Assembly (NCBI GenBank): GCA_907163375.1
Contig: CAJQUW010006824.1
Location: forward strand, 1-64,000
Reading direction: 5' to 3'
DNA length: 64,000 bases
Source: Prostheceraeus crozeri
Lineage: Eukaryota > Platyhelminthes > Polycladida > Euryleptidae
This document shows positions 13,204-29,570 of the stretch, one piece after another. Every line of letters begins with the position of its first letter. Position 1 is the stretch's first letter. The position numbers and the translations under genes are program-made. The notes under the pieces are model-generated. The model was given only the letters and a program-made list of their open reading frames with translations, was not told the origin of the DNA and made no database searches.

Positions 13204-13599
13204 ATGGTTGTACAAAGAAAACGACGGTCTTTTCCCCGAAAGAAACGGTCATTTAAACCTTCAAGTCAGTTTAAGAAGGCATTGCGGAAATTGAATAAAA
13301 TACATAATAATCGGAGGAAGTGTGAATTAATTCAAAATTCAAGTGATGACTTCATACGTGATTTGGCCTTTACAATTCACAAGTGTCTTCCAATATACAA
13401 GCCTTTGTTGAATCCTAGGTCTATCAAAAACATTCGCAAATTTTCGAATCCTAGGGGTAGTGATAAAGTCAGGAGAAATATGATTCAACATGGAGGTGGT
13501 GGCTTCATGGATATGCTAAATGACATCAGTAATAGTATCTCCAAAGTGCTTGACAGTCCTCTAGGAAGAATTATTACAGGTGTTGCTTTGCTGGCATAA
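13204..13599 (+). CDS. Basic protein with GGGG-F site, candidate minor capsid/core precursor
   Basis: The first ATG of the frame is at 13204 and gives 131 aa. The N-terminal third is very basic (MVVQRKRRSFPRKKRSFK). At residues 95-101 QHGGGGF resembles the Gly-Gly cleavage sites of adenain-type proteases. The remaining C-terminus (MDMLNDISNSISKVLDS) is amphipathic and ends in a hydrophobic segment. This layout resembles adenoviral pVI/pX-type precursors that are cut during maturation, and the element encodes such a protease at 20668. It is a second protein of this kind beside 18904-19374. The function is inferred from layout only. Confidence 0.5.
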   Translation: MVVQRKRRSFPRKKRSFKPSSQFKKALRKLNKIHNNRRKCELIQNSSDDFIRDLAFTIHKCLPIYKPLLNPRSIKNIRKFSNPRGSDKVRRNMIQHGGGGFMDMLNDISNSISKVLDSPLGRIITGVALLA

Positions 13600-13656
13600 A
13601 GCCAACAAATCAGAAGTCGACACGTCATCGATTACTCATTGACATTGATTGAAGGC

Positions 13657-13664
13657 TATATAAG
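13657..13664 (+). promoter_or_regulatory. TATA box for the gene at 13731
   Basis: GGCTATATAAG is centred here, 67 bases before the ATG. The same 11-base string recurs at 30985-30995 before another gene of the element. TGACATTGATTG lies directly upstream. Confidence 0.75.
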
Positions 13665-13730
13665 ATAGGCGTGCGAGCTTTCAGTAGTCATTTTCAAGTG
13701 ATCATCCGTCAGTGTGAGTACAACAACAAA

Positions 13731-14504
13731 ATGTCTCTTAAAATGCACATAATTAAGGAAGAGGGCGTCGCTGTTGATCGCGATCTCTTGAAATTTAGAC
13801 CAACGCGTAAGGTTCAAGGAATTGGAAACACGTTTTATTTTCAAACGCTTAATTATGGTGATGATGGATTATATTTACAAGTTCCATTTTTTCATAGCAA
13901 TGGGATGTCATCGTCTAGCTACAGCAATCTAAGACAAATGCGTGTCACATTTCCTAAATGGCAGCAAACTATACTAAAAATGATTGATTCATTCGCAAAG
14001 GAATGTGTCGAACTACCTGACAGTGCTCCGGTACATTGGAAGAAGAAGTTGGAGGAAGGGAGTGGATTCAAAGATCTACCTGAGTTTCATACTCTCTTCT
14101 TAAAATTATCTGACCATTTCCAAGCGTTTGATGTGCTGTCAAACCCAATGGATTGTGATGATCTCAAGCGTGGGCGGTACATGGGCTTGGTACACGTTAC
14201 TGGACTTTACATTGGCGCTCATGGTTCAACTGGTAAATTGGCTTCTCTTCAGATGAAGGTTCTACAATTGGTTTATGAACCATTACCAATTGACAAGTGC
14301 TTAATTCATATTGAAGACATTGCTACACCAAGTGAGCCGAAAGAATCAAACGATGCAAAAGAAGCCAAGGAGGTTGATGAAAGCAAGAAAAGGACGCGCA
14401 GATCGAGGGACAGCATGAAGCTAAAACTGAGGCGACAGGATGCACAACCTGACTTGAAGAGTTCCTTCGATTCTACTCTCGATGAAGACACTCAAATGTG
14501 GTAA
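13731..14504 (+). CDS. Polinton protein with acidic, Trp-ending tail (candidate ssDNA-binding protein)
   Basis: The ATG at 13731 follows a TATATAAG box and gives 257 aa. Residues 1-185 look like a folded beta-rich domain (GIGNTFYFQTLNYGDDGLYL; GRYMGLVHVTGLYIGAHG). This is followed by a charged linker with KKRTRRSR and an acidic tail ending DSTLDEDTQMW. A basic stretch followed by an acidic tail with a terminal aromatic residue is typical of viral and phage single-strand-binding proteins, so that role is proposed. No family match can be claimed. An AATAAA signal at 14529 lies 25 bases after the stop. Confidence 0.5.
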   Translation: MSLKMHIIKEEGVAVDRDLLKFRPTRKVQGIGNTFYFQTLNYGDDGLYLQVPFFHSNGMSSSSYSNLRQMRVTFPKWQQTILKMIDSFAKECVELPDSAPVHWKKKLEEGSGFKDLPEFHTLFLKLSDHFQAFDVLSNPMDCDDLKRGRYMGLVHVTGLYIGAHGSTGKLASLQMKVLQLVYEPLPIDKCLIHIEDIATPSEPKESNDAKEAKEVDESKKRTRRSRDSMKLKLRRQDAQPDLKSSFDSTLDEDTQMW

Positions 14505-14528
14505 ATTAAAACAACTGTTTATCGTTTC

Positions 14529-14534
14529 AATAAA
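14529..14534 (+). terminator. Polyadenylation signal AATAAA
   Basis: AATAAA lies 25 bases after the stop codon of the 13731-14504 gene, in a short gap before the ATPase gene. Confidence 0.6.
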
Positions 14535-14597
14535 ACTTGTTTGGAAATAATTTACATGTTTTAAGTTCTAACTAAGCAAAATAATGGGTGTTAGTAA

Positions 14598-15263
14598 ATG
14601 ATGATGATGATATTGAATGACTCTGAAATGACAGATTTTCGACTATTCACTGACCGTACAATGTGTGTGGCCGGACCAAGTCAGTCTGGTAAAACAACTT
14701 TTGTAACTCAGCTACTGCAATACAGAGATGAGATGTTTAATAAGAAAATAAAACAGGTTAAATGGTACTACGGTATTTTTCAACCAGATCTGCATTCTGC
14801 ACTTCGACAGCAGGGATACGAAGTAAAACAGGGGCTACCACCAACTGAGGATATCCGAGCAGGTGATTTGATCGTGTTGGATGATCTACTTCGCGAAAGC
14901 AAATCTTCAAAAGATGTAACCGAAATGTTTATTCAAACAGCACACCATAGGCAAGCTTTTATCATCTACATCACTCAAAATATCTTTGATGGAGGAAAAG
15001 AGCAGAGAACTAGAAGTCTTAATACACACTATTTGGTGGTTTTCAAGAATCCAAGAGATAGTAGTCAGATACATCATTTGAGTCGACAAATATTACCTCA
15101 GCAGCCTAAAACTCTTTCGAAAATATATGATGAAGTGACGAAGAAGCCACATGGCTACCTCTTCATTGACTTAACGCAAGAATGCCCAGAGCGATTTCGA
15201 TTTCGAACTAATATTATACCAAACTCTGGAGATGCAATGATAGTATTCACTGTCAACAGTTAA
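14598..15263 (+). CDS. Genome-packaging ATPase (FtsK/HerA, A32-like)
   Basis: The 221 aa protein has Walker A GPSQSGKT at residues 26-33 and Walker B LIVLDD at 91-96, followed by a sensor-like IIYITQN near 131-137. This is the pattern of the A32-type packaging ATPases found in Polintons, virophages and large DNA viruses. It would drive DNA into preformed capsids. It opens the dense rightward late gene block. The first of four consecutive ATGs is at 14598, and the conserved part starts around residue 10. Confidence 0.92.
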   Translation: MMMMILNDSEMTDFRLFTDRTMCVAGPSQSGKTTFVTQLLQYRDEMFNKKIKQVKWYYGIFQPDLHSALRQQGYEVKQGLPPTEDIRAGDLIVLDDLLRESKSSKDVTEMFIQTAHHRQAFIIYITQNIFDGGKEQRTRSLNTHYLVVFKNPRDSSQIHHLSRQILPQQPKTLSKIYDEVTKKPHGYLFIDLTQECPERFRFRTNIIPNSGDAMIVFTVNS

Positions 15264-15297
15264 TTAATTGGACCAATGACAGTTTTAAGCAATACAT

Positions 15298-15978
15298 ATG
15301 TGCTTCAGCTACTATGACATTTTCAATATGAGTTTTTCAAAAATGGTTGTCATTCCTCAAGAGGAATATCTACAGCTATCAATGACAAGAAATATTCAGG
15401 AAGCTAAAAATGTGGATCAGCCGGTTACAGATCAACTTAAGCAATTATCTCAACAGGATAGGGAAATTCAAAAGATTGAGGATCCTTATCGACGAATGCA
15501 GTTACAGGCTGAGAATTTAGAGGAAAGACGACATATTAGGGAAAAGCTGCGCAAATTCATAACTCTTTCAACTCCTCGAGCATATCGCATGCGAGCTGAA
15601 AGGTTGTTTGATTTTATTGATCCTCACGTAAAGTTCAATGAGCGAGGAGAAATAATAGAAGAAAACGGTGATGTAATTAGGAACAGTCACATCGATGATC
15701 TTCTACAATATGCTGTGAGAGATGTAAGGCGAAAGCTGGGTGCTCCACAAGGATGGGAATACTTTCAAAAAGTGCTATCTAATCACAACGTTCCCCATAA
15801 TATAATCGGAGGACCAACTATAAATGAACTGAATAAAGTGTTGGCAACCGATTCTTCAAAAGGAAAAGTAGTTACCACAGTCAAGCGAGAACCCATTGTT
15901 TCTCCTGCTACGTCTCCAACTCCGAAGAGAAGAGGGAGACGCTCAACACGAACACCGAAAAGTTACAGCAAATATTAG
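15298..15978 (+). CDS. Polinton-conserved helical protein, basic C-terminus
   Basis: A 226 aa frame starts at 15298. The ATG at 15328 (MSFSKMVVIPQEEYLQL) fits better the start commonly seen in proteins at this place in Polintons. The middle is rich in Gln, Glu and Arg and probably helical or coiled coil (QDREIQKIEDPYRRMQLQAE). The C-terminus is basic (TPKRRGRRSTRTPKSY). It lies between the ATPase and integrase genes. The function is unknown; a scaffold or DNA-associated virion protein is conceivable. Confidence 0.65.
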   Translation: MCFSYYDIFNMSFSKMVVIPQEEYLQLSMTRNIQEAKNVDQPVTDQLKQLSQQDREIQKIEDPYRRMQLQAENLEERRHIREKLRKFITLSTPRAYRMRAERLFDFIDPHVKFNERGEIIEENGDVIRNSHIDDLLQYAVRDVRRKLGAPQGWEYFQKVLSNHNVPHNIIGGPTINELNKVLATDSSKGKVVTTVKREPIVSPATSPTPKRRGRRSTRTPKSYSKY

Positions 15979-16144
15979 GCAAATAACAGTGAAATTGCTT
16001 CCCATATCATGTCTATGCAGAAAATTTGCTGCTGTTTGAAGTCTGCGCTCGATAGTAAAGGAGAAGAGGGTATAGAAGTTGATATCAATTGCGTTAGCAG
16101 TTGCTGTGCAAGTAATACTCGAGCGAGTCGCCAGAATAAGGAGG

Positions 16145-17233
16145 ATGAGCGCAGCGGAAAAACTGAGACAAATCTACTACGATATCAATCATCCCGCAAG
16201 CTTCAGTCGTCCGAGCGTTTTAGCCCGTGCAGCAGGTGTACGAATAGAGACAGTGAAGAAATGGTTGAAGAGTCAACCAACCTACACGCTACACAAGGAT
16301 GCGAGGAAGCGGTTTCCAACTAGGAGATATGTTGTCAATAATATTGACAGTCAATGGCAAGCAGATTTGGCTGATATGCAGCAGATATCTCAATACAATG
16401 ACGGTTACAAGTACATCCTAACCGTAATAGATATTTTATCACGATATGCTTGGGTTCGCGCCTTGAAATCCAAGAGAGGAGCAGAAGTTGAGGCGGCTTT
16501 TCAAAGTATTCTAAATGAAGGGAGGATCCCACAAAGAATACAAACAGATCAAGGAAAGGAATTCGAAAATTCCCACGTTCGTGGTCTACTTGAGCGATAT
16601 GACATTGAACTGTTCAGTGTTAAAAGTGCTTACAAAGCTGCGATGGTTGAGAGGTTCAATCGTACACTCAAGACAAAGATATGGCGGTATTTCAGTGCTA
16701 AAAATACACATGTCTGGATAGATGATTTACAGAAGTTCGTGAGAAATTACAATGAGAGCTATCATCGGATTATAAAGATGCGTCCAATCGACGTCACTCG
16801 GGATAATGCTATGGATTTGTGGCTTCGCCTGTATGGCAAGGCACCAAAAACAACTACCGATAAGAAGAAAATCGACGTTGGTGATAGAGTTCGCATCTCT
16901 AAAGTGAAGTCTACATTCGAGAAGGGCTATCTACCGAACTGGACCGAAGAAGAATTTTTTGTTGATGAAGTAAATAAAAAATTTAAACCAACAATGTATA
17001 AGTTAATAGACTATCATGGTAATCCAATTGAAGGGAAATTCTACTCATATGAATTACAAGTGGTTGATCGGAGTGAAGAAGTGTATATGATAGATAGAAT
17101 AGTTAAGAGGAAAGGACATGGTAATCATAGAAAATATCTCGTCAAATGGAAGGGATATCCTGACTCGTTCAACAGTTGGATAGCCCATCAAGACTTGAGA
17201 AATGTGGAAGTAGGAGACATTAGAAGCTTTTAA
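16145..17233 (+). CDS. Retroviral-type integrase with C-terminal chromodomain
   Basis: The first ATG of the frame is at 16145 (MSAAEKLRQIYYDINHPASF), 362 aa. The N-terminal helix-turn-helix is followed by the rve core with WQADLADM (first Asp, near residue 72), RIQTDQGKEF (second Asp) and AAMVERFNRTLK (Glu), the D-D-E triad of Polinton integrases. Near residue 300 a chromodomain begins (YMIDRIVKRKGHGNHRKYLV, then KWKGYP). It joins the element ends to host DNA with a 6-bp stagger, matching the TTTGAT duplication. The chromodomain may direct integration to methylated histones. The frame stays open upstream to about 16079 without ATG. Confidence 0.95.
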   Translation: MSAAEKLRQIYYDINHPASFSRPSVLARAAGVRIETVKKWLKSQPTYTLHKDARKRFPTRRYVVNNIDSQWQADLADMQQISQYNDGYKYILTVIDILSRYAWVRALKSKRGAEVEAAFQSILNEGRIPQRIQTDQGKEFENSHVRGLLERYDIELFSVKSAYKAAMVERFNRTLKTKIWRYFSAKNTHVWIDDLQKFVRNYNESYHRIIKMRPIDVTRDNAMDLWLRLYGKAPKTTTDKKKIDVGDRVRISKVKSTFEKGYLPNWTEEEFFVDEVNKKFKPTMYKLIDYHGNPIEGKFYSYELQVVDRSEEVYMIDRIVKRKGHGNHRKYLVKWKGYPDSFNSWIAHQDLRNVEVGDIRSF

Positions 17234-17277
17234 GCTAATATTGGTGAATGACTACTGATCCCACATTATATCCAATA

Positions 17278-18861
17278 ATGTCGTCTGCTGAGTTCAACAT
17301 CATTCTCCCGAGCAACAGCAATCCAAAGATATTTCCAGAGAACAAACCATCGGAGTATTCGGTTGAGTTTGCCAAGCCTCTTTATCTGAGTGGCCCTCAC
17401 GAAGTCGCATTAACTGAAGTCACATATTACAATGATATTAGTTTGTTAACGAATAATTATTTTGAAATACACACGGAAGTACGTGAAAAGGATGATTGTT
17501 TTCGCCTATTTCAGAATGGTCTACATGGAACATGGGATTTTCATCATCTTACTTTACATCCTTTCTCACCATCGCTACCGTCTGTCAAGAACATGATCAA
17601 AATTGAAAAGGCATATGCAACGTCTTCCTTCAATTCTACAGTTCCCACACTCAGCTTGCAAGATACAGAGAATGAAATTGGTAAAATGTTCCGACGAATA
17701 AACGATCTCTTCACTCTCACTTTAAATAGATTCTTCAAGCCAGTTGTAAAAGGCTCAACTAAACTATTGAAAGAAGGGAGGAAGCATGTTCTGCTAATAT
17801 TAGGTAGAGATTTGGCACACACTCTAGGGTTTCCCAGAACTACATTTTCATCTCTACATTGGTATAATGGACTTGGATGGAAAGCTGAGAGAACAGTTAG
17901 TGATTTTCAATGTAGAATTGCACCGTTGTATGCACTACAGAAAAGGAGTGTCCGCGTCAAGGAAAAATTTGAAGTTATTAAAAATATTGAAGACGTTGCA
18001 AGAAAGTTTCAAGGATCAGTGCCAGAAAGTTTAATGACTTGTGAATATAAGAAAGAGAAAGTAACTCTTTTTACTGCTGAAATGGAGGTAGAATTTCTTG
18101 TTTTCACTAAAAAGACACCTTTGGAAAAGTCTAATTCCGCTGTTATTGAATTCGGATCAGAAATTCAGAGACTATTCAAGCATCCTGATAGTCCACCGTG
18201 TTTGACAGAATTAAATGATACATATAAGATTCAGTTGAATTCCAATAAACTAAAGACAGCAACAAACGACGCATGGCACATCAATGTATATTCCGATAAA
18301 ATACTGGCTGACGAATTGAGTACCTCAACTGAGCTAGTAAGGAGGGTCAATTTAAACGTTGAAGATCTAAACACACCATCGGAAATTTGTACAAAACTAA
18401 ATGAAAATGGTGCACACTACCTCAACGCAGATGAGTACTTCTTTTCATATGATCCCTTAAAGAAGCGAATGGTTTTAAAAGTAGGGAGAAATTACCTCAT
18501 TAAGCTCGACAAGATGTTGGCAACAATTCTAGGGTTCTCAAAATTCACAATAAATGAAGGTACAACCATTGGTAATTCAGCACCTTCATTAGAGAGAGAC
18601 ATCAGTAACTTATATATTTACTGCAATATTGTTGAGTATACTAGAGTTGGTGACATCGAGGCTCCATTGCTACGCACATTTCCCCTATCATCCGGCCGGA
18701 AGCAGTTAATCAATCGTGAATTCATCAACAAAATGTATTTACCGATCAATCGAAGTGTTATCAATAGAATCGACATTTCAATTCATGATGATGCGGGTGA
18801 AATTGTTCCATTCTATGGTGGTGTTACTGTGCTGACACTACATATTAAGAATCGAGACTAA
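17278..18861 (+). CDS. Polinton virion-associated protein with duplicated LGF module
   Basis: The family is recognised by its start (NIILPSNSNPKIFPENKPSE, then VEFAKPLYLSGPHEVALTEV), which recurs in Polintons of many invertebrates. An upstream in-frame ATG at 17248 would add ten residues. The 527 aa protein seems internally repeated, because ILGRDLAHTLGF near residue 185 has a counterpart KLDKMLATILGF near 410. The gene lies between integrase and capsid genes. A penton, spike or other minor capsid role is likely but not shown by the sequence. Confidence 0.65.
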   Translation: MSSAEFNIILPSNSNPKIFPENKPSEYSVEFAKPLYLSGPHEVALTEVTYYNDISLLTNNYFEIHTEVREKDDCFRLFQNGLHGTWDFHHLTLHPFSPSLPSVKNMIKIEKAYATSSFNSTVPTLSLQDTENEIGKMFRRINDLFTLTLNRFFKPVVKGSTKLLKEGRKHVLLILGRDLAHTLGFPRTTFSSLHWYNGLGWKAERTVSDFQCRIAPLYALQKRSVRVKEKFEVIKNIEDVARKFQGSVPESLMTCEYKKEKVTLFTAEMEVEFLVFTKKTPLEKSNSAVIEFGSEIQRLFKHPDSPPCLTELNDTYKIQLNSNKLKTATNDAWHINVYSDKILADELSTSTELVRRVNLNVEDLNTPSEICTKLNENGAHYLNADEYFFSYDPLKKRMVLKVGRNYLIKLDKMLATILGFSKFTINEGTTIGNSAPSLERDISNLYIYCNIVEYTRVGDIEAPLLRTFPLSSGRKQLINREFINKMYLPINRSVINRIDISIHDDAGEIVPFYGGVTVLTLHIKNRD

Positions 18862-18903
18862 GGCTTTACGCTATTGTGAAATTCTTCAGAATTCAAATTT
18901 ACA

Positions 18904-19374
18904 ATGACAGGCTTTTATAGCAGACCATCATATCAAAGCGGATATCCCGTATTTGCTGGAGGTAGGCGACAAGTAGGAGGCGGAATATTTGGTGCATTAA
19001 AGCGTGCATTACTTCCTGGACTTAAACGCTATGCGTTGCCAGTGATGAAACGCGTAGGAAACAGAGCTTTAGATTTTGGTGCAAATGTTGCTGCGGATGC
19101 ACTCCAAGGAGCGGATATAGGAGAATCAATGAAAGTCCGTGCTCAGCAATCAGCTATTGATGCATTGGATGACCTAACAAAGTCGAGACGACCTGTTCGT
19201 AAGAGGCGCAACAAGACAAGACAAGTTGGATCCGGTCGAGTTACTAAGCAAAGACGAAGAGTTAGGAAATCTAGATCGAAGCTTCCTGTGAAGAAGACAA
19301 GAAAGCGAAAGCGAAAGCGGAAATCGAAATCAGTTGGAAATAAGTCGAAACGAAGGAGATTAACGTATTTCTAA
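18904..19374 (+). CDS. pVI/pX-like minor capsid or core precursor
   Basis: 156 aa. After a Tyr/Ser/Gly-rich leader, RRQVGGGIFGALKRALLPGL (residues ~22-41) combines a Gly-Gly protease site with an amphipathic helix, as in the membrane-lytic minor capsid protein of adenoviruses. The second half is extremely Lys/Arg-rich (KKTRKRKRKRKSKS), suited for binding packaged DNA. It lies directly upstream of the major capsid gene, the usual place in Polintons. Maturation by the protease at 20668 is an inference. Confidence 0.75.
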   Translation: MTGFYSRPSYQSGYPVFAGGRRQVGGGIFGALKRALLPGLKRYALPVMKRVGNRALDFGANVAADALQGADIGESMKVRAQQSAIDALDDLTKSRRPVRKRRNKTRQVGSGRVTKQRRRVRKSRSKLPVKKTRKRKRKRKSKSVGNKSKRRRLTYF

Positions 19375-19384
19375 ACTGAGCGAA

Positions 19385-20671
19385 ATGCAATCGACTATCA
19401 ATTCAGCTTTGTGCTTTTTTGATACATCACCCCAGCAAACTGACATAATTTCGTCGAGAATTGTTGACTATTTTCCCTCAACAAATATTGTGGGTAATGA
19501 CATACCTATTCAGTTTGATGTTACTGCTAATGCTGACGACTACATCGACTGTCAGTCTATTGACTTGGAATTGTGTGTACAAATTAAAAAAACTGATGGT
19601 ACTAACATTGATTCTAAGGACAAAGTGGGGTTGATTAATCTCCCAATTGCCAGTCTCTTCTCAGATGTCACTTTATCACTAAATAATAAGCAGATTGAAG
19701 GAGGAGATTCATCATATCCATATGGAGCTTACTTATATACATTGACTCAGTTTCAAAACCAGGCCAAACAAACGCACTTACAAGCTGCTGGTTGGTTTAC
19801 AGATCAGTCTGGTAAGTTCGATGATTTCGCTAATAATGGTTTGAAAAAGCGTGTGGAATTAACTGCTGATTCAGCTGAACTACATCTAAAAGGTCCTGTC
19901 TATCTTGATTTTTTCCGTCAATCGAGATACCTCCTATCTCAAGTACAAATGCGATTGACATTTGTTCGTGCTAAATCAAAATTTGCTTTGATGTCATTCG
20001 GACCTGCTGCATCCTATGATGTACACATAACGGAAGCTGTCCTCAATGTAAGGCGAGTAAAAATGAATCCCACAGTCATCAATCAACATGCTGTAGGACT
20101 GAAGAACCACAATGCTATATATCCAGTCAATCATAGTGTACTAACCACTTTTACGATTCCGGCGACTACCTCATCTTTTGATTATCCCAACCTCTTTCCA
20201 ATTGCCCTACCGAAGGCGGTGTACATCGCGTTTGTAGAAAATGAATCATTTTGTGGTAACTTTCAGAAGAATCCGTTTCATTTTCAACATTTTGGTATCA
20301 CGAAACTCGGTCTATTCGCAGATGGCAATTCAGTTGCTTGTAAGGCCTATCAACCGAATTTTAAGGAAAACAATTTTGTTCGCGAATATTGCTCTACTTT
20401 CATGGCACTAGACATGTTCAACACTGACGATTCAAATGGTATTACGATGGATATGTATAAGAATGGCTACTTCTATATATTATACAACCTCAAAGCAGAT
20501 TGTGATATAACTGGGGAAAATGTGGATGTTACAAAAGCTGGTAACCTTCGATTGGAACTCACATTTGCGGATCCTTTGAAAGTTCCTGTAACGGGTTTAC
20601 TTTACGCAATCTATGACAGCAGCATTGAAATTACTAGATTGAGAGACGTCTTGGCCAACTATCAGAGATGA
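19385..20671 (+). CDS. Major capsid protein, double jelly-roll type
   Basis: 428 aa. The region NLPIASLFSDVTLSLNNKQI (residues ~80-100) followed by YPYGAYLYTLTQF is the conserved signature of Polinton major capsid proteins. These are double-jelly-roll proteins that trimerise into hexons. LDFFRQSRYLLSQVQMRL in the middle is the second typical conserved block. It is shorter than many relatives but open from start to stop. Its stop overlaps the protease start (ATGA at 20668), so the two genes are tightly coupled. Confidence 0.88.
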   Translation: MQSTINSALCFFDTSPQQTDIISSRIVDYFPSTNIVGNDIPIQFDVTANADDYIDCQSIDLELCVQIKKTDGTNIDSKDKVGLINLPIASLFSDVTLSLNNKQIEGGDSSYPYGAYLYTLTQFQNQAKQTHLQAAGWFTDQSGKFDDFANNGLKKRVELTADSAELHLKGPVYLDFFRQSRYLLSQVQMRLTFVRAKSKFALMSFGPAASYDVHITEAVLNVRRVKMNPTVINQHAVGLKNHNAIYPVNHSVLTTFTIPATTSSFDYPNLFPIALPKAVYIAFVENESFCGNFQKNPFHFQHFGITKLGLFADGNSVACKAYQPNFKENNFVREYCSTFMALDMFNTDDSNGITMDMYKNGYFYILYNLKADCDITGENVDVTKAGNLRLELTFADPLKVPVTGLLYAIYDSSIEITRLRDVLANYQR

Positions 20672-21129
20672 GCAACCTCAGTAATGTGGAAATCTTAAAC
20701 TTAATGAAGAAAGCTCATCCCTATTCCAAGAAATTGTTTCTCAATGTATTCCCAAGAGATGAACTACCTACATCAATTCAGTCATATCCCTGTTCTCTGA
20801 TTATAAATACAGACACGGTTAATCTTCGTGGTAAACATTGGGTTGCGGTGTACATAAATCGCAATAGAGTAGCTGAATATTTTGATTCTCTCAATCAGCC
20901 GCCATTACATGATATATCAATATGGATCAATAGATTCTCATGGACTAGAAAGAAAGTGACATCGTTCCCACTCCAAAGTAATAGATCCCTCATGTGTGGG
21001 GGCTACGTACTATATTTTGTTAATGAACGACCTTTGAAAAGTGACTATAAAAGTGTTATTCGATTATTCTCTAGAAATTGTGCTAAAAACGATGTAATTC
21101 TCAACAATTATATGAACTCAGTCTTGTAA
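20668..21129 (+). CDS. Adenain-type maturation cysteine protease
   Basis: 153 aa. The catalytic residues visible are His57 in GKHWVAVYI, Asp73 in EYFDSLNQPP, Gln103 and Cys110 in LMCGGYVLYF. The Gln-Cys spacing of seven is the one found in adenain. It would cut Gly-Gly sites in virion precursors, such as those at 13204 and 18904. The start overlaps the capsid stop by four bases (ATGA), so translation may rely on reinitiation, or a separate transcript is made. The stop codon overlaps an AATAAA signal (21128-21133). Confidence 0.92.
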   Translation: MSNLSNVEILNLMKKAHPYSKKLFLNVFPRDELPTSIQSYPCSLIINTDTVNLRGKHWVAVYINRNRVAEYFDSLNQPPLHDISIWINRFSWTRKKVTSFPLQSNRSLMCGGYVLYFVNERPLKSDYKSVIRLFSRNCAKNDVILNNYMNSVL

Positions 21130-21133
21130 TAAA
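21128..21133 (+). terminator. AATAAA overlapping the protease stop codon
   Basis: TAATAAA combines the protease stop (21127-21129) with a polyadenylation signal and would end the rightward late gene block. Confidence 0.6.
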
Positions 21134-21216
21134 TTCATTATATATGCAAAATTTGTTTTATTTCCCAGAGCGTAATGTTTAGAGGGAGAGCAAAGTTTCA
21201 CAATTGAAATGTATAT

Positions 21217-21284
21217 TTACAAACTATTTACAACAGTCCATCAACTTTTTACAAACTATTTACAACAGTCCATCAACTTTTTAC
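21217..21284. repeat. Short tandem duplication between convergent genes
   Basis: TTTACAAACTATTTACAACA followed by GTCCATCAACTT occurs twice in a row, at the junction of the rightward and leftward gene blocks. Confidence 0.85.
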
Positions 21285-21836
21285 AAAATAATTTTTCAAA
21301 TCACTTATTATTTGGGATACAACTTTCAAGTCTTTAATGCCAGTTATCACAACTTTCCCATTGTGGAACACGTGAACGTGATAAGGATGCCAATTTGTCA
21401 TTTGCGCAGCAGGAAATAACTCCACCTCATAAGTAAGATTGGACGTAGAGGAAACTTTGCGAAAGTCATAGCGATAATTCAATTCGCATAACACTGTCAT
21501 GGTTTTTACTTTCCAATTAGGTAATTTATCCCGTAATAGTATTTCCAACACGGAGTGTAGGTAATTGAGATCACAATCATCGAAGCACCCAACACACTGC
21601 ACTGTTCCATTAGGAAAGAAAAGGACAGTCATAGATTTCTCCTTCCTCAAGATTCTCCATGTCAACATTGTGGGTCGCCCCAGATACAAACTCGTCGTCG
21701 GCTTTCGCCTCTTCTTCACTATTAGCCATTGCTTTCTGTTGGGTATGTCTCGCTCGATTTGATGTAGATCGAGTTTTGAGTTTGCTTTTGTAACCACCAT
21801 GCGATTCACCACTTTCATCTGACTGATGTCGTCCAT
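21273..21836 (-). CDS. TATA-binding-protein-like protein
   Basis: 187 aa with the two-repeat layout of the TBP saddle. Repeat 1 starts VVNRMVVTKANSKLDLHQIE (residues 9-28), then has an extra ~20-residue basic insertion, then TWRILRKEKSMTVLFFPNG and VQCVGC (59-84). Repeat 2 has YEVELFPA (136-143) and VHVFHNGKVVITG (154-166). The LDL in the first strand-helix, the two NG-V-G strands and the ELFP signature are the most conserved parts of TBP. It could recruit polymerase II to the element's TATATAAG promoters. The N-terminal 75 codons overlap the gene upstream (21610-22194) in another frame. The ATG at 21818 is an alternative start. The similarity is my reading and needs a profile search. Confidence 0.7.
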   Translation of the reverse strand: MDDISQMKVVNRMVVTKANSKLDLHQIERDIPNRKQWLIVKKRRKPTTSLYLGRPTMLTWRILRKEKSMTVLFFPNGTVQCVGCFDDCDLNYLHSVLEILLRDKLPNWKVKTMTVLCELNYRYDFRKVSSTSNLTYEVELFPAAQMTNWHPYHVHVFHNGKVVITGIKDLKVVSQIISDLKNYFVKS

Positions 21837-22194
21837 CTCTGACGAATGAAATTATACTTGGTAGAATCTCCTTTATAAAGGAACCCCATGTGACGTCACT
21901 AAAACGAAAAAATCGATGATCAACGTCTTTCCTCTTGGATGAACATACGTAAAGTTTGACAGTTGAATCATATTTTATCCATACCTTTTCATCCAGAGGA
22001 ATCTTCATCCGAGTATCATGTCGCTCAATCAGATTAGCAAAATCTTTAAGTGAGGGCAATGCGTCACTACTAATAGAAACACCACGATGATTTCTACTAT
22101 TTGTTACAGAATGTCGAAAAACTATTTTGCTTGAATCTGTTAGGTGAATTTTTTGTCTGTCACTTAACTTCCATGTTCTGATATAATGAGGCAT
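21610..22194 (-). CDS. Candidate PC4-like ssDNA-binding/transcription coactivator
   Basis: 194 aa. Residues ~7-55 (KLSDRQKIHLTDSSKIVFRH, then RGVSISSDALPSLKDFANLI) and ~63-115 (KIPLDEKVWIKYDSTVKLYV, then FRFSDVTWGSFIKEILPSI) look like two copies of one unit. Each has beta strands followed by a short strand and a helix beginning with a W or L/P position, the plan of PC4/p15 domains that bind single-stranded DNA. The tail is Ser/Lys-rich, then acidic (NSEEEAKADDEF; NLEEGEIYDC). It lies between PolB and the TBP-like gene on the same strand, so a replication or transcription role fits. The assignment is tentative. Confidence 0.45.
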   Translation of the reverse strand: MPHYIRTWKLSDRQKIHLTDSSKIVFRHSVTNSRNHRGVSISSDALPSLKDFANLIERHDTRMKIPLDEKVWIKYDSTVKLYVCSSKRKDVDHRFFRFSDVTWGSFIKEILPSIISFVRDGRHQSDESGESHGGYKSKLKTRSTSNRARHTQQKAMANSEEEAKADDEFVSGATHNVDMENLEEGEIYDCPFLS

Positions 22195-22401
22195 ATTCTG
22201 AAGTTATTCTTAATGTAATTATTATAATCTGATAATTGCCTAAAGTTAGTTTATGTTTGCAAATCAACATATCGGAAGGATGCTGAATGCTGTTATGTAT
22301 TCAAATTCAATTTCTACATATCGGAAAGATGTAGAAATGTACACTCAAATATTTACTACCTACGTGTTATTTTTTTATGGATTCTACCGTTGTTCTATCC
22401 G

Positions 22402-25400
22402 CTATTCTACATCACCTGCTGTGGGAAGACATTTTCGTCTTTTTGACGGAGGAGGAAGTCCAAGGCTATAGTGTCCATATGGTAAAGATAAGTTCTTATT
22501 TATCCAGCAGCGCTTATCTTCCCAAAGTGAGAGCCCTCGCTTTCTAAACGTTTTTGTTTCAACTATGTGGTTTTTTGAATTTATGACGGTTATTTGCTCA
22601 TTGGTATCTTTCTCAGTATAGTAAACATTTCTATAGTCACTATGTTCTATGCGTCTAACCACTGCTCTCTGTATACCCTTTGCTCGCCTAATGCTATGAT
22701 GTGTTGAATCTAGAAATTTCATTGAATACATTTTTGGTTTCAAAAGAACCATCTCCTCAAGCAACTTTCCCGCGCACTCATCCTTAAAACAACCGAGTCT
22801 AGCCTTGTTTGTAATTGAATATAAACGGTGATTCACATCATAATTTGAGGAATCAAATTTTTCACCGAAATACAGGAATATATCCTCTAGACGAACAGAT
22901 GGTGAGGTGTATAGACAAAGGAAAAAGCTATCGGTATCACCTCCACAAAGACGTGCTCTATTTATCAGTGGACATCTAATTAAATCTTTATAATACAACT
23001 GGTACATTTCTAATTTACTATAGTCAAGAACTGCTTGACCAACATAAATTAGTTTATTTAGAACTATTGAAGGTTTATACAGTTCCATACCAACTAAATC
23101 TTCATCGAATATCTTATGCTGGACATATAGGGGATGATTGGCCAATTTAGATAGTTGCAATGTTGTATTTACTAATTTGAAGTTCCTCCGACGTCTCACA
23201 TTCTCCATAGTCTTACCAAACAGGGAGTTGTTTTTTAATTTATAAAACGCTTTTTCAAAATCAGATTTTGATTGAGCTCTTTTCTGCGAATTCATATCAA
23301 TATATTGTCTCAGCCACGATTTTTGTGTGAACTGGATTCCAGCATGGACCTTCTTTATCTTCATTCCCATAGAGAGGTAGAATTTTAGAATCGAGTAATG
23401 AACAACATAATTTTCTCGATCGAACTGATGCAGCAACAGTTTCTTTGTGCTTGTGAAACACATATTTGGTCTTAAAGTTTCATAGAAATTTTTCATATAT
23501 GTAGAAAACATTTTTTGCTCTACCAATTGCATTTCTGGAGCTAATGGAAAATCAGCCGTGTCATCGTGAATGTCTGAAGGATATTCTAAATCCAAATCAA
23601 AGACATAACCTATATCAGCCTCATTATCAATATTTTGAATGTTTTCCTCATTTGAGAAGTACACTACTTGACCTTCATCAAGCCATTTGAAGTTTGAATG
23701 TGGGAGATTCTCACTTAGCGACGAACCGTAAAGGTTGTTGACGTCTAAATATGCTAAATGACGGCTCTCATGTGGATTGTTTTGCAACTCTGAAATACGA
23801 GCACGCGCTCTATGAATATTTGTAAACGTCATACCTCCTCGGATCCCCCTCTCAAAAAGATTATACATGCTCTCATCTTGAATGTAGTGTGGAGGATCAT
23901 TCGAAGCAAAATTCAATGCTGATGTGAAGCTAAGGTGAGGTAGGCTAACAAAATGAACTGGATCTACTTGATCTTCATCCTGACTTAATTTCCTAAATGT
24001 CTCAAAAATGTCTGCCAACAGCAAGACATCTAACTTGAGGTATGCAAGCATGTAGTCTCCAAATGTTTTGCAATTAAACGCATTCCATGCTTTTTTCGCG
24101 TGCTCATAATCTATATCGTTGCAATGCTCAAGAGTAAGATCGTTGTAAAATTCCCTTTGAGGAGGAAGACAGAGCTCCGTTAGAGTTGCCAAACTACTAA
24201 AATATGAGTACGGAAACACTCCTTTTTCGTAAAGAATATCATCAGTTAATTTTGGAAATTCATTTCGCAGCGCTTCTACATGTTTGTAGACTTTCAGACT
24301 TTTGGCTAATTCAGCAAGCGATGCGCTCAGAAATTGATAAGAGTCCAAAAATTTCAATTTAAAATATACAGGCTTTCCATTATATTCGCTTACTGGAATT
24401 TTTGATGATAGAGTAATATATTTCTCAGCAGTAGCTGCAATAACATCTAACTTCCAAGATTTCTTTTTACCAATTGCTTTATAACAAACAATATGGCTGT
24501 CATAGTTTTTGAAATTGTGAAAGAAAACAGGAAGCTCTCGTCGATTCAATCTTAATCGCAAATTGCACTTTGAACATAATGCTTGCCTGTACTTTCCGGT
24601 TATGTGATCGTGATCACGAACTTTTGATATATCTTCACTAAATTTTATCTTACATTTATTGCAATTTTCTGCATTTTTATGAGCAATATCTTCCACTGCT
24701 GTCAATCGCATCGGCATTCTGGTCATGACATTTTGATTATCATATAAATTTTGGACAACATCTAAATGATTTAGGAACTCAGCGATGCAATTTTCCCCTT
24801 CAAACAGATAATAGGTGTTATTGTAGGTTGACTGAAGTGCCTCATGCCAGACGTGGTACACACCTACAGCCGCAGGTTTATGAATTTTGTTTTCTATTAA
24901 ACACTCGATATCGGCGTATATGACTAAAGGTGGACTGAGTTGGTGCTCAGTACTACTTATCTGAACTTCTAAATGTTTGGGCATTTTTTCTATTTGCGCC
25001 TTACCACGACTACAGAATTGAAAATGTCGTTCTAAAACGCTTCTCTTTGAAAAGGATTGAGTGCATCTTTCACAAAAAATCTTGCGACTTGTGTAAAATT
25101 TGCTATATAACCTAGATAATTTTCGTATGCCGCAATAATGGGCAAAACCGTTATGTAGCACTAGCAAAATATTAACGGTTCTTTTGCCAATGAAATTGCT
25201 GTTGTATCTTACTCCCTTGAGACCATTTTCATACAAGTGGATATTTACTTTTATATCATTGTTTTTCTCAAACTTAGGAATGTCCTTTATTGACACTGGT
25301 GTGGAAATGCCATCCATAACCAATTCAGATGTCCACTTTCTATATGAGTTTACCTCGTTTATCTTTGAATGAGTAACTTCATCGTAGTGAATGATTGACA

Positions 25401-26259
25401 AGATAGAATACATGAAGCAGTCATTTGAATTTGAATTTACATTTATTACAGCCTTAGAACTTCTTAACTTTTTAGGTAAAGTATTCATTTTACCACCAGA
25501 TAGTAGAGGAGTTGAAATTAAATTGAATTCTACATTTACTACTTTATCAACAACCCAATTGCTTCCTCTATTTGCAAAAGTTGAAACATGATTTGATAAA
25601 CTATTTAAATTATCCTGAAACCATGTGTCAAAGTCATATATATAATTTGATGATAATGAGGTGAAGTGCGCGAGAAAAGTTTCTTCCTCTTGAGGATTAG
25701 AACGGACATAGCGAATTTGAGCAATTAATCGACCACGTAGTTGAAGACTAGTTCGCAAGTCATTAACTAAATTTTCTAGTAAGGTTCGCATGTTGAATAA
25801 AAAAGATGTTACATCTACTGTTTGAATGGTTGGTGTAATGTCATACACGCGAGCACGTCCGCTGAAGGCGCTTTCACTAAGGGTGAGTGTTCCATAATTA
25901 TTGTGACTACTCATTTCAATGTTCATATCATGTATATTATTGTGTTGACGGAATCTACTTGTGCTATTATAATTCTTACCACAGTGAGAGCAGCAATGCC
26001 TAAAAGCTTCATCATTATTTAAAGCGCTATCTGGAATGTCCCTAACATGACTACTACAAGTTGATAAATTAGTATTATTTGTTCCTATTCCTTCTTGACT
26101 GCAACATACGAGATTGTGTCTTTTTAAATTATCTTTCCTACTGGTTTCATATGGACAATTACTACATTTATGCTTTATTCCTAGCTTGCAAAATTTTTCA
26201 TGACGCGTTAAATTGCTAACAATTGTAAACTTCTTTCCACACTTAGAGCAGACAACCAT
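22402..26259 (-). CDS. polB: Protein-primed family B DNA polymerase with N-terminal zinc fingers
   Basis: 1285 aa. Residues 1-110 hold C2H2-type fingers (VCSKCGKKF..., KCSNCPYETS, CCSHCGKNY). Around 280-390 is an OTU-like segment starting NDCFMYSILSIIHYDEV, and a further CxxC finger (FCERCTQSF) follows. The exonuclease has YADIECLIE (~446) and FHNFKNYDSH (~580). The polymerase has YLDVNNLYG (motif A, ~838), NNSLFGKTMENVRRRR (motif B, ~1015) and GGDTDSF (motif C, ~1105). The C-terminus ends with the Polinton-type LPYGHY. It replicates the element from its protein-capped ends. All catalytic motifs are intact. The start codon is 33 bases downstream of a TATATAAG box. Confidence 0.97.
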   Translation of the reverse strand: MVVCSKCGKKFTIVSNLTRHEKFCKLGIKHKCSNCPYETSRKDNLKRHNLVCCSQEGIGTNNTNLSTCSSHVRDIPDSALNNDEAFRHCCSHCGKNYNSTSRFRQHNNIHDMNIEMSSHNNYGTLTLSESAFSGRARVYDITPTIQTVDVTSFLFNMRTLLENLVNDLRTSLQLRGRLIAQIRYVRSNPQEEETFLAHFTSLSSNYIYDFDTWFQDNLNSLSNHVSTFANRGSNWVVDKVVNVEFNLISTPLLSGGKMNTLPKKLRSSKAVINVNSNSNDCFMYSILSIIHYDEVTHSKINEVNSYRKWTSELVMDGISTPVSIKDIPKFEKNNDIKVNIHLYENGLKGVRYNSNFIGKRTVNILLVLHNGFAHYCGIRKLSRLYSKFYTSRKIFCERCTQSFSKRSVLERHFQFCSRGKAQIEKMPKHLEVQISSTEHQLSPPLVIYADIECLIENKIHKPAAVGVYHVWHEALQSTYNNTYYLFEGENCIAEFLNHLDVVQNLYDNQNVMTRMPMRLTAVEDIAHKNAENCNKCKIKFSEDISKVRDHDHITGKYRQALCSKCNLRLRLNRRELPVFFHNFKNYDSHIVCYKAIGKKKSWKLDVIAATAEKYITLSSKIPVSEYNGKPVYFKLKFLDSYQFLSASLAELAKSLKVYKHVEALRNEFPKLTDDILYEKGVFPYSYFSSLATLTELCLPPQREFYNDLTLEHCNDIDYEHAKKAWNAFNCKTFGDYMLAYLKLDVLLLADIFETFRKLSQDEDQVDPVHFVSLPHLSFTSALNFASNDPPHYIQDESMYNLFERGIRGGMTFTNIHRARARISELQNNPHESRHLAYLDVNNLYGSSLSENLPHSNFKWLDEGQVVYFSNEENIQNIDNEADIGYVFDLDLEYPSDIHDDTADFPLAPEMQLVEQKMFSTYMKNFYETLRPNMCFTSTKKLLLHQFDRENYVVHYSILKFYLSMGMKIKKVHAGIQFTQKSWLRQYIDMNSQKRAQSKSDFEKAFYKLKNNSLFGKTMENVRRRRNFKLVNTTLQLSKLANHPLYVQHKIFDEDLVGMELYKPSIVLNKLIYVGQAVLDYSKLEMYQLYYKDLIRCPLINRARLCGGDTDSFFLCLYTSPSVRLEDIFLYFGEKFDSSNYDVNHRLYSITNKARLGCFKDECAGKLLEEMVLLKPKMYSMKFLDSTHHSIRRAKGIQRAVVRRIEHSDYRNVYYTEKDTNEQITVINSKNHIVETKTFRKRGLSLWEDKRCWINKNLSLPYGHYSLGLPPPSKRRKCLPTAGDVE

Positions 26260-26291
26260 GATGATCGTTAAGGATTAACAATTTGCGTCTA

Positions 26292-26299
26292 CTTATATA
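26292..26299 (-). promoter_or_regulatory. TATA box of polB
   Basis: TATATAAG on the minus strand lies about 33 bases before the polB ATG, implying a very short leader. Upstream are CCAAT (26336-26340) and TGACGTC (26328-26334). Confidence 0.75.
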
Positions 26300-26461
26300 C
26301 TGTCTACATATTATATTACGTAACCAGTGACGTCGACCAATGGAATTTGTTCTCAACCTAAGACATATTTCCACTTAAATACATAAATAAGAAGACATAC
26401 AAAGTGTACAAGTAATTATTTTTTCCAAAAGAAGTCAAAAAAGTCAAAGAAGTCAAAAAAG

Positions 26462-28177
26462 TCAAAGAGATTGACACTTAATAATGTCACTATGCGTCAC
26501 CTTGACGTGAGCACAATGTCCATGACACCTTGAGAAGTCATCGACATGTGTCATGCGCACTTTGTTGATAACTGCCGCTTTCGATAGCTCAACGTGCATT
26601 ATTGTTTCACGCTTCACTATCGATTGCGACAGTTGCAGGTTAGCCTGCGAAATGTTGCGGAACGACTCAAGCAAAGACTTGTAGTCAGCGCGAAGAGCCG
26701 TCTCGCGTTCCTCTTGTTGGCGCAACTTACGTTCAAGGTGACGCACTTTGTCCTCCGTCGAACGAGGTTCCACCACCTCGAGCACAGATTCAACTGTCTC
26801 ATCGAGGTCGCAGTTGAACGTTGGATCGCAAGTTGGGAGGATTACTGTCGGTGTAGGACTGTTGGGCATCGGCGTAGGAGCAGGTGGTGACGATGGGACC
26901 CAGTTGTTACTCATTGGTGGCTGAGGTGGTGTTGGGACGTGGTGGAGAATTGGAGACGGTGGGAAGCAGACATCAATATCGGGTGAGGCGCGGATTTGGG
27001 AGAACGGAATCTCCTCTTCCGGAACAAGTGTCAACTGTTGCTGGAAAAAACAGAGATTTGAATAAATGAAAGGGACATAACATCACGAGTTCGATGTGAC
27101 GACATGATAGTTAGGATTATTAGCCTATTCCTATGATTGATACTTACATTTTCTTCATCTGAAGAGGACTCCCGGATGGAGTACGGGCGCTCCTCATTTT
27201 CCTCCATCGACGATGTCGTTGCAGGTGTTAAGCCGAGGAAATTCGATTGCCTGCTCTTTTTTAGAGAGAGCGATCGGTAGCTCTACAAGGGAAAATACAT
27301 TTAAATTCCTCTCGAATTTGAATGTATGCATGTGACCTAAGTTAGTAATCTAATCATGTTATTTTATATGACTAAAATGATTTTCTATTACTTACTCTCT
27401 GTGAAGGCGGCGTAGGCTTCGCAGCCCAGCTGCTACATGCGGGCGTACTAGCGACTACCTGTGGATAGAAAAGAAACATAGTTAAAATGTAAAAATCGGA
27501 AAATACATATGAATAGATAAATTGCTGATTTGACATTTCAAACTTACATTCCTTTCAGGAATCGATGGCTTCTGCCCGACTTTCATCTTCTTAACAGGTG
27601 GCTTCTTGATCTGAAATGGTGAAAAGAAATGCACACTATTATATATGAAAAACAGAAGTCAACTTTCCCTATAAGGTTTGAACTCTAAATATTTTCTTTA
27701 AATTATGTTACTGCTAATTTTCTAAATATGAACTCACCTCAACATCACTATCCGAGGAGTCGGAATCGGTGTCGATATACCTGCGGGACTTGGGTTTGGG
27801 TTTCGCCTTCGCTTGGGGCATTGCAGGGGTAGAGTCCTCCTGGGCTTGGCTGAGGATGCCTTCAAGAGGTCGATCTTTGGCGAACAGCCTCTCGACTCTC
27901 TTCTTCTCCTCCAAACTAGTGAGGTTTAGGCCCTCCCGCCCGTTTCGTAAGGCGCACTTGGTGTGGGTGGAGATAAATCTCTTTGGATTTTCGCCTTTTG
28001 CCTCCATGTCCGTTAAAAGGTATCTTTTACACGATAGGCAGTAAAGGAAACTGCGGTCCTGTCGTAGAGTGCAGCCCTTATGTTGACTCTTCATGGAGTG
28101 GCGGACCACCTGCTTACAGGTCTCACAATAATGAAAAATTAGACGTTGGCGAGGTAAGCAGCTGGGACGAGGCATGT
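26462..28177 (-). CDS. Five-coding-exon zinc-binding/coiled-coil protein
   Basis: Coding exons on the minus strand are 28175-27738, 27610-27548, 27458-27396, 27282-27148 and 27040-26462. Each junction has a consensus donor (GTGAGT or GTAAGT) and a pyrimidine-rich acceptor. Every intron is phase 0, and the joined frame is open for 425 codons. Exon 1 carries two similar zinc-binding units (YCETCKQVVRHSMKSQHKGC; YCLSCKRY ... THTKC). The middle is Lys-, Ser/Asp- and Pro-rich with a nuclear-signal-like KKPPVKKMK. Exon 5 has a coiled coil (VRHLERKLRQQEERETAL) and a His/Cys tail (CHGHCAH). An acceptor at 28178 shows that a non-coding leader exon precedes. The function is unknown; a DNA-binding regulator is plausible. 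Spliced genes are unusual cargo here. Confidence 0.75.
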
Positions 28178-28490
28178 CTGTAAAAAAATAAATCCATATT
28201 TAAAACACAAAATAGCTTAAATGTAAATTTTGCATCTGTAGGTGGTAGAACATATTGATGTACATACTTATACACTTAGAAAAAGTAGCATTTAAATTGT
28301 TCCAAGTCACATCGTAGTAGTGAATATTATTCGAAGTAGAACACCTAAAGTCTGTAATAAACTTAATAATCAAAACTCAAAGTCTATTAATTTTGATCAA
28401 GTCTTTTTCTATCTCTCTAGGTTTAGAACTTATTGATGTACCTACTTTTAAACTTAGAAAAAAGTAACATTTAAATTGTTCCAAACTCAC
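28178..28490 (-). other. Intron in the 5' leader of the five-exon gene
   Basis: The donor GTGAGT (minus strand, 28490-28485) and the acceptor TTTTTTTACAG (ending 28178) bracket this stretch, two bases before the ATG at 28175. The leader exon would be 28491 to about 28560. Confidence 0.6.
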
Positions 28491-28595
28491 TTTAGAATAT
28501 TGATCAAGGTTTGAAAGAACGGAGCTGACGTCTTGCTAGGCAGGCTGATAATTCAAAAATGAGTGAAGAACTGGCTTCAACACTTTATTTATATA
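28491..28595 (-). promoter_or_regulatory. Proximal promoter and leader exon of the five-exon gene
   Basis: TATATAAA on the minus strand (28595-28588) is followed about 30 bases later by a possible start, then a leader containing GACGTCAGC and ending at the GTGAGT donor. The whole block recurs 541 bases upstream. Confidence 0.6.
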
Positions 28596-29388
28596 TGAAA
28601 TGCACAAAGCAACTACGAACAAAGACCTACTGACGTCATGCCATTGAGATGATATAGTTAAACAAAATGTATTCATTTAAACAAGATTCAAAATCAAACA
28701 GCTGATAAAGTGTAACATTAATAACTTGACATTAAATTGTAACAGAGTTTATTAATTTTGATCAAGTTATTTTCTCTCTTTAGGTTTAGAACATTAATGT
28801 ACCTACTTATGAACTTAGAAGAAAGTAACATGTAAATTGTTCCAAACTCACATCGTGGTAGTGAGTATTATACGTAAGAGAATAGCTAAAGTCTTTAATA
28901 AATTTCATAAACACAACTTCAAGTCTATTAATTTTGATCAAGTTATTTTCTATCTCTTAAGGTTTAGAACTTATTAATGTACCTACTTATGAACTTAGAA
29001 AAAAGTAACATATAAATTGTTCCAAACTCACTTTAGAATATTGATCAAGGTTTGAAAGAACGGAGCTGACGTCTTGCTAGGCAGGCTGATAATTCAAAAA
29101 TGAGTGAAGAACTGGCTTCAACACTTTCTTTATATATGAAATACACAAAGCAACTACGAACAAAGACCTATTGACGTCATGCCATTGAGATGATATAGTT
29201 AAACAAAATGTATTCATTTAAACAAGATTCAAAATCAAACAGCTGATAAAGTGTAACATTAATAACTTGACATTAAATTGTAACAGAGTTTATTAATTTT
29301 GATCAAGTTATTTTCTATCTCTTTAGGTTTAGAACATTAATGTACCTACTTATGAACTCAGAAGAAAGTAACATGTAAATTGTTCCAG
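28491..29388 (-). repeat. Tandem duplication of promoter plus leader exon (541-bp period)
   Basis: 28491-28847 and 29032-29388 are nearly identical, including the TATATAAA box (second copy 29129-29136), the TGACGTC words and the leader exon with its GTGAGT donor (second donor 29026-29031). The interval between them repeats shorter blocks also seen at 28381-28490. This gives two possible promoters that could both splice to 28178. Confidence 0.85.
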
Positions 29389-29429
29389 AGTGATAAATCT
29401 TAATAGAATTATCACCCAATCAAAATTTC

Positions 29430-29570
29430 GAATTTCGCGCACTTATCAAATGATCCATTTAAACAAACCATATGGTGAACACATGAGGCATCAGCTGAGG
29501 ATGTTTATGTGGTCATCGCATTTTGAAATTTTGCGCACTTATCAATTGCTGCATTAAAACAAGACTGTGG
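29430..29570. repeat. Diverged ~35-bp direct repeat
   Basis: GCGCACTTATCAA followed by a TTTAAAACAA-like tail occurs at about 29437 and 29533. No gene is seen between 29389 and 30515; the stretch is a patchwork of the repeats listed here. Confidence 0.6.

Follow-up and report, generated by a model that had tools for sequence, protein, structure and literature searches.

A non-canonical TATA-binding protein gene in Polintons of the flatworm Prostheceraeus crozeri, with a candidate promoter box

Polintons are often placed near the root of the eukaryotic dsDNA viruses, and we know of no account of how they switch on their virion genes. A 64,000 nt stretch of the Prostheceraeus crozeri genome (contig CAJQUW010006824.1, positions 1 to 64,000; hereafter the window) raises this question in a concrete form, for within it an initial annotation had read a frame at 21273-21836 as a TATA-binding protein (TBP) carried by a Polinton. 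Is the gene a TBP, is it maintained by the element, and which promoters would its product read?

A TBP-family gene within a Polinton

The placement of the gene within a Polinton held: long terminal inverted repeats (TIRs), a 6 bp target-site duplication (TSD), and a DNA polymerase B (PolB) and RVE integrase above their Pfam cut-offs, all hallmarks of these elements, were found. The principal features are as follows.

11013..11018, no strand: target-site duplication TTTGAT, left copy, read at the element end
11019..32269, no strand: Polinton/Maverick element, 21,251 bp, with TIR arms 100% and 99% complementary; ends read
11019..11797, no strand: left TIR, with internal subrepeats of about 31 nt (arms 11019-11670 and 11653-11797)
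14598..15263, plus strand: packaging-type ATPase (P-loop), from AAA_14 (6.2e-6, 26.7 bits against a cut-off of 27) and position
16079..17233, plus strand: RVE integrase with chromodomain (rve 8.5e-13, Chromo 3.3e-9)
17248..18861, plus strand: putative penton/minor capsid protein, by position
18904..19374, plus strand: basic protein gene
19385..20671, plus strand: putative major capsid protein (MCP), by position and size
20668..21129, plus strand: Ulp1/adenain-type protease, convergent with TBP, from Peptidase_C48 (E = 0.0013, just under the Pfam cut-off) and position
21273..21836, minus strand: TBP gene, 187 aa, from Pfam, phmmer against the PDB, predicted fold and selection
21610..22194, minus strand: O194, a conserved ORF of no known family, upstream of TBP and overlapping it in another frame
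22402..26259, minus strand: DNA polymerase B, carrying zinc fingers at its N-terminus and an endonuclease VII-like region
31495..32269, no strand: right TIR, by inverted-repeat comparison
32270..32275, no strand: target-site duplication TTTGAT, right copy, read at the element end

The protease and ATPase score just under their Pfam cut-offs, and their positions are conserved across loci. The PolB match to DNA_pol_B_2 (2.5e-19) was obtained using the C-terminal 666 aa; the whole ORF listed Endonuclease_7 (4.5e-7) and not DNA_pol_B_2. The capsid genes (MCP and minor capsid) were recognised by no library scanned and are assigned by position; the putative MCP is conserved, yet had no relevant match in Pfam, NCBIfam or the other library scanned. 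The TIR array of subrepeats of about 31 nt lies at 11289-11609 and the mirror position, and a RING-finger gene (11608-12351; zf-C3HC4_3, 3.5e-10) adjoins the left TIR. Pyrimidine-rich AG stretches resembling 3' splice sites (27035-27060 and 28176-28200) abut ORFs 26462-27034 and 27714-28175, and these sequence features hint at introns in a Polinton.

The 187 aa frame, which lies on the minus strand (a detail the initial annotation left unstated), matched the Pfam family PF00352 in two stretches (E = 1.6e-13; 50.7 bits, the cut-off being 22.9). A phmmer search of the PDB sequences (E≤10) returned 44 matches, the 35 best of which were TBPs (E 4.1e-5 to 0.0061; four were fusion constructs and one was listed solely as ECU04_1440), and the remaining nine (E≥0.35) were unrelated to TBP. 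The best TBP model of NCBIfam gave 1.4e-9 and 37.7 bits, far under its cut-off of 181 bits. A profile of the family (A3) reached PDB TBPs with a best E of 5e-25, and the predicted structure is the two-repeat TBP saddle; a TBP profile match and a saddle were the tests proposed with the initial annotation. The two related halves, with LDL, NG-V-G strands and ELFP, described there correspond to two TBP repeats in which SKLDL, NG-V-G and ELFP are seen. A basic insertion in repeat 1 was also confirmed, with a length of about 14 residues and not the roughly 20 originally given; among the alignment rows shown it occurs only in the window's subgroup (P0001, P0003 and L021). By profile match and structural model, the product is a member of the TBP family, but a non-canonical one.

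O194 overlaps the start of the TBP gene by 227 nt, and its dN/dS is 0.21 outside the overlap and 1.27 inside it. A tail of the EEG(E) type is shared by O194-type proteins of several families, and two tandem O194-type copies stand in some loci of family D. A likeness to PC4, seen by eye in two repeats with RG-SIS-type motif ends, was unsupported by family, PDB and hhalign searches: one O194 member matched no Pfam family, eight members gave weak unrelated matches only (E 0.06 and 0.13), a 9-row profile found nothing in the PDB at E≤10, and hhalign against the host PC4 gave 0.5-1.4%. The AF2 model of O194 is poor (pLDDT 41.5), with a beta-beta-beta-alpha order present twice.

Maintenance, neighbourhood and relatives of the TBP gene

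In the host genome (2.05 Gb), 150 of 10,609 first-look candidates were scored, so that the counts are lower bounds. All 150 were TBP matches, giving at least 150 in the genome, and 12 of them contained an internal stop. At least 18 copies, the window's included, are identical to the window protein, and a second group lies at about 73% identity. For a single family pair, the window copy against one copy (L022) of the 73% family, dN/dS of the TBP gene was 0.156 and fell to 0.104 outside the O194 overlap; the other element genes of this pair gave 0.125 (MCP), 0.144 (protease) and 0.079 (PolB).

Twenty stretches of 10 kb around TBP matches were fetched; being chosen for TBP, they describe the surroundings of the gene and not its frequency among Polintons. 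It had been suggested that the gene be sought beside polB elsewhere, and a PolB match was present in 20 of 20 of these loci, all picked by their TBP. TBP is convergent with the protease in 15 of the 20; the other five (L028, L034, L036, L038 and L039) lack a protease match and are laid out differently. A penton gene separates TBP from PolB in families C, D and E, where TBP nevertheless still adjoins the protease. The best identities of the other element proteins in distant families are about 25-63%, which makes the gene arrangement an old one. The putative penton gene between TBP and polB, outside the capsid block, was seen in L026, L027, L029-L033, L035, L037 and L040.

Searching with the window TBP itself listed 12 proteins. 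With a 20-row profile, 104 proteins out of 872 candidates were listed at E≤1e-3, and every one carried PF00352. The profile-search relatives, known from protein sequences alone, come from contigs of at most 24.7 kb and from the sources ena, jgi, lgn and, once, ncbi. P0002, present in both lists, is the window's own fragment, and P0004 and P0014 look like families of the same host. IMG/VR scans with TBP, MCP and POLB produced no relatives.

For comparison of residues we assembled 85 members, namely 80 database proteins of 150-235 aa, loci L021, L027, L030 and L037, and the window protein; shorter proteins outside the length range were dropped. A FastTree phylogeny that contained no other viral TBP placed the 85 members apart from five cellular TBPs with a support of 0.93, and their median identity was 23.5% to the host TBP and 25.6% (M. 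jannaschii) and 22.6% to archaeal TBPs. Exons that we read as those of a host TBP and a TRF2-like protein were found in the host genome. That the element gene is a recent capture of the host TBP, functionless in its new setting, appears extremely improbable: we found no evidence in its favor, the tree separation and an identity to the host TBP not above that to archaeal TBPs give no sign of such a capture, and purifying selection and conserved position also speak against it. Homology, predicted fold, selection and conserved position together show that the predicted TBP gene is of old standing in a large Polinton lineage and has been maintained there.

Residues of the two lobes and the promoter boxes

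In known TBP complexes the C-lobe grips the upstream half of the box together with TFIIB, and the N-lobe the downstream half. The element TBP shares with cellular TBPs, eukaryotic and archaeal, the PF00352 match, the two-lobe saddle, colinearity over the full length, and the C-lobe contacts to DNA and TFIIB. Residues were numbered as in yeast TBP, anchored on the aligned yeast chain, with Phe 99, 116, 190 and 207 taken by us to be the intercalating ones. In the C-lobe, F190, P191 and F207 are each kept in 85 of 85 members, and the TFIIB-contact acids of the C-terminal stirrup are nearly invariant (E186 in 82, E188 in 84, the remainder Asp). T215 is kept in 83 (Ser in two), N159 in 81 (Thr in four, the window protein among them), V161 in 80 (Thr in four, of which the window protein is one, and Met in one), F116 in 84, and N69 in 72, the other 13 being gaps. 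The element TBP departs from cellular TBPs, to which its median identity is 22-26%, in the N-lobe: F99 is replaced by Pro and V122 by Gln in 85/85, and T124 is replaced throughout (Leu 74, Phe 6, Val 3, Met 2). L114 has become Gln in 79, with Leu retained in six including the window protein, and V71 has become Met in 67 and is Val in six. Position 205 falls in an alignment gap of the 85-member set and was left unjudged. Three of the canonical four intercalating Phe are thus kept, and the fourth, 99, is Pro in every member. The C-lobe being kept and the N-lobe changed, the TFIIB side appears intact and the downstream reading head rebuilt with polar Gln. A Pfam scan of 18 element ORFs gave no match to a TFIIB family.

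These residues bear on two further readings. The retained TFIIB acids and the loss of one intercalating Phe would suit a protein that serves as adaptor or decoy, in the manner of TRF2 or of a transcription inhibitor, binding host TFIIB without reading specific DNA and either reaching Pol II via partners or blunting host transcription. We think this quite unlikely, since a protein that does not bind DNA would have no need of F116, F190, P191, F207, T215, N159 and N69, at the frequencies given above. A role at the element ends in replication, integration or packaging, in place of transcription, could be suggested by the strand that TBP shares with PolB in the window, but the retained TFIIB contacts argue otherwise, nothing specific favors it, and we regard it as very unlikely.

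The initial annotation had placed TATA boxes (TATATAAG) on several genes and proposed that the element may bring its own promoter-recognition factor; in line with this, the protein could be a general TBP that reads the element's ordinary TATATAAG boxes and frees it from the supply of host TBP. The element has six TATATAAG sites where 1.03 would be expected, a count equalled but not exceeded among 100 shuffles, and the whole window has 11 against 2.72 expected, a count reached in 0 of 100 shuffles. Four of the six sit 40-74 nt before ORF starts; TATAAR generally is not enriched in the element (37 against 37.9 expected). These four sites, and two upstream of TBP, are listed below.

13657..13664, plus strand: TATATAAG, 74 nt before ORF 13731-14504
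21870..21881, minus strand: palindrome containing TATAAA, 41 nt upstream of the TBP ATG, within O194 coding sequence
21891..21898, no strand: TGACGTCA (CRE), 62 nt before the TBP ATG, in family B too, within O194 coding sequence
26292..26299, minus strand: TATATAAG, 40 nt before the polB ATG
30918..30925, minus strand: TATATAAG, 68 nt before ORF 30516-30857
30988..30995, plus strand: TATATAAG, 55 nt before the ATG at 31043

Both TATATAAG matches of another locus, L044, also precede ORFs, at 63 and 95 nt. A CRE-like site lies upstream of polB in both families compared, with TATATATAG replacing TATATAAG in family B. The CRE and TATAAA of the TBP gene are confounded as promoter evidence, because both lie inside O194 coding sequence; family B has no TATAAA upstream of TBP, and the TATAAA found 20-48 nt before TBP in other families was set aside as evidence for a promoter, since where compared it coincides with WEKYKR codons of the O194-type gene.

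Several related observations were made. The palindromic CRE TGACGTCA occurs three times in the element (21891, 28631 and 29172; six strand matches where 0.62 are expected, a number that was also the maximum among 100 shuffles), and CATATCGGAA occurs twice between O194 and polB (22268 and 22317; 0.03 expected). Four further TATATAAG sites lie in 53200-59300 of the window, one of them 63 nt before ORF 56985-57584, and the ORFs at 56985 and 57717 look mutually related.

The excess of TATATAAG, its placement before ORFs here and in L044, and the canonical C-lobe contacts all favor a general TBP. Against it, changes to the DNA face of the N-lobe (F99, V122 and T124 in 85/85, L114 in 79/85) would be unlikely to reach fixation in a protein aimed at canonical TATA, genes with TATATAAG should already suit the host TBP, and polB of family B does without TATATAAG. 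We therefore consider a general TBP unlikely.

A second box emerged when all 7-mers were ranked, in an unbiased way, over upstream windows of 85 nt. The ranking covered 73 ORFs (≥100 aa, both strands) of six families, taken from the window element and L022, L027, L028, L029, L030, L044 and L045. TAAGCAA ranked first, in 10 of 73 upstream windows, and no 7-mer exceeded 9 in 400 shuffles; TTTAAGC was second, in 8 of 73, and some 7-mer reached at least 8 in 6 of 400. The own counts of both were reached in 0 of 400 shuffles, and in the downstream 85 nt they occurred in 3/73 and 0/73. The orthologues of families A and B are not independent in these counts; without family B, TAAGCAA was found in 7 of 60 and TTTAAGC in 6 of 60, their own counts again in 0/400, with some 7-mer reaching 7 or more in 24/400. 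Searched on both strands, a degenerate form of the box had 13 of 22 matches within 60 nt of an ORF start (2.9% expected), for which the binomial value of 4e-15 is inflated by the motif having been defined on the same sequences. Ten of these 13 lie at 36-54 nt; the window's element accounts for the remaining three, at 14-26 nt. The sites in the window's element include:

13150..13157, plus strand: TAAGCAA box, 54 nt before ORF 13204
14572..14579, plus strand: TAAGCAA box, 26 nt upstream of the ATPase ATG
15283..15292, plus strand: TTTTAAGCAA box, before ORF 15298
17228..17237, plus strand: TTTTAAGCTA box, before the putative penton gene, overlapping the integrase stop codon
19244..19251, plus strand: CTAAGCAA box within the basic gene, 141 nt upstream of the ATG of the putative MCP
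28213..28221, minus strand: TTTAAGCTA box, 46 nt upstream of ORF 27714-28175, which is not part of the capsid block

In family B the MCP box lies 153 nt before MCP. The window's basic and protease genes have one-mismatch variants only, and no box was found upstream of its integrase gene. The box was first seen upstream of ORFs in the window, L022, L027 and L029. Of two loci fetched later, L044 has a single TTTAAGC, which precedes an ORF by 37 nt. L045 has two: one precedes an ORF by 39 nt, and the other was already known from L027 (before the ATPase). Families D and F, which carry TBP, have no box within 60 nt of ORF starts. This, together with the distant or missing boxes at the window's MCP, basic, protease and integrase genes, the overlap of the penton box with a stop codon, the box at ORF 27714 and the Thr at positions 159 and 161 of the window protein, weighs against the reading proposed below. 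TAAGCAA/TTTAAGC is no TATA box. Since the DNA-reading surface of the N-lobe is changed in 85/85 members, this second box, TTTAAGCAA, rather than TATATAAG, is the likely special target of the element TBP, as judged from sequence.

A proposed promoter system and its viral counterparts

We propose, at about an even chance of being right, that the element TBP is an alternative TBP which brings host TFIIB and Pol II to boxes of a non-canonical kind, chiefly those of structural genes. Its C-lobe would grip and kink the upstream half of the promoter box and dock host TFIIB, which would bring host RNA polymerase II. The N-lobe, with Pro for the intercalating Phe99 and Gln for Val122 and usually Leu114, would read a non-TATA downstream half, where the Gln side chains may tolerate G:C pairs that the hydrophobic residues of TBP exclude. 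The likely target would be TTTAAGC[A/T]A, a box that precedes mostly structural genes and to which, we infer, the element TBP binds; on such TTTAAGCAA boxes it would nucleate complexes of host TFIIB and Pol II. The TATATAAG/CRE-like promoters of polB and some other genes could be serviced by host TBP. Host factors would read this first gene set and the element TBP would then switch on the second, the 'early' and 'late' classes being assumed from gene function. That the element brings its own promoter-recognition factor, as initially proposed, and runs its own promoter system is well motivated by these features, which suggest it.

A TBP mimic of the beta- and gammaherpesviruses, ORF24 of KSHV, acts with host Pol II at a late-gene box other than TATA; it keeps the four Phe, does without the TFIIB acids, carries an additional DNA-binding CTD and works with five partner proteins (PMC12529657). 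Set against ORF24, the Polinton TBP is reversed, with one Phe lost, the TFIIB acids kept, and a bare 187 aa TBP core. In the TBP-like proteins of giant viruses and poxviruses the L5.1 Phe is mostly kept and the TFIIB acids are only about 40% conserved, and almost all dsDNA viruses with a TBP, poxviruses excepted, also have a viral TFIIB (PMC7221094); by comparison, the Polinton TBP keeps the acids, and no TFIIB was found in the 18 element ORFs scanned. TBP genes also occur in other, large-genome DNA virus groups of eukaryotes, the mirusviruses and WSSV/nimavirus, according to PMC10132985 and PMC4506587, and we liken these to the Polinton TBP by gene presence, not sequence.

The initial annotation knew of no TBP described for Polintons, and our searches of the openly licensed literature found none. 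In the passages concerned, papers naming both Polintons and a TATA-binding protein deal with giant viruses, mirusviruses or mirus-like elements, or cite such work. The main texts of PMC8097293, PMC10328495, PMC3671162 and PMC10120064 contain neither 'TATA' nor 'TBP', and that of PMC4028283 does not contain 'TATA'.

Vertebrate Mavericks have two modules, both directed toward the center, one of ppolb, atp, pm and pz and the other of int, minor capsid, pw, MCP and pro, and pz and pw are called uncharacterised (PMC8097293). In this layout TBP occupies the pz slot, as the last gene of the polB module and convergent with pro, a match by position alone; O194 lies in or near the pm slot, again by position; and the ATPase is here in the opposite module, unlike the vertebrate atp beside ppolb. 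We offer as a tentative guess, with a modest chance of being correct, that the core gene pz belongs to the TBP family, having diverged too far for earlier searches to recognise it, and that animal Polintons generally carry a private promoter-recognition factor which directs host Pol II to TTTAAGCAA-type boxes of virion genes. Its chances are lowered by an HHpred survey of 72 Polintons that, in the parts seen, reported no TBP (PMC4028283). If true, this system would parallel the late system of herpesviruses in a minimal form that depends on TFIIB, and the guess itself is a concrete and checkable one for an orphan gene.

The element TBP would be a simple virus TBP, seemingly built for the use of host TFIIB. 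With a widespread TBP of one canonical and one redesigned lobe, and a candidate cognate box, the switching on of virion genes in Polintons is now directly testable.
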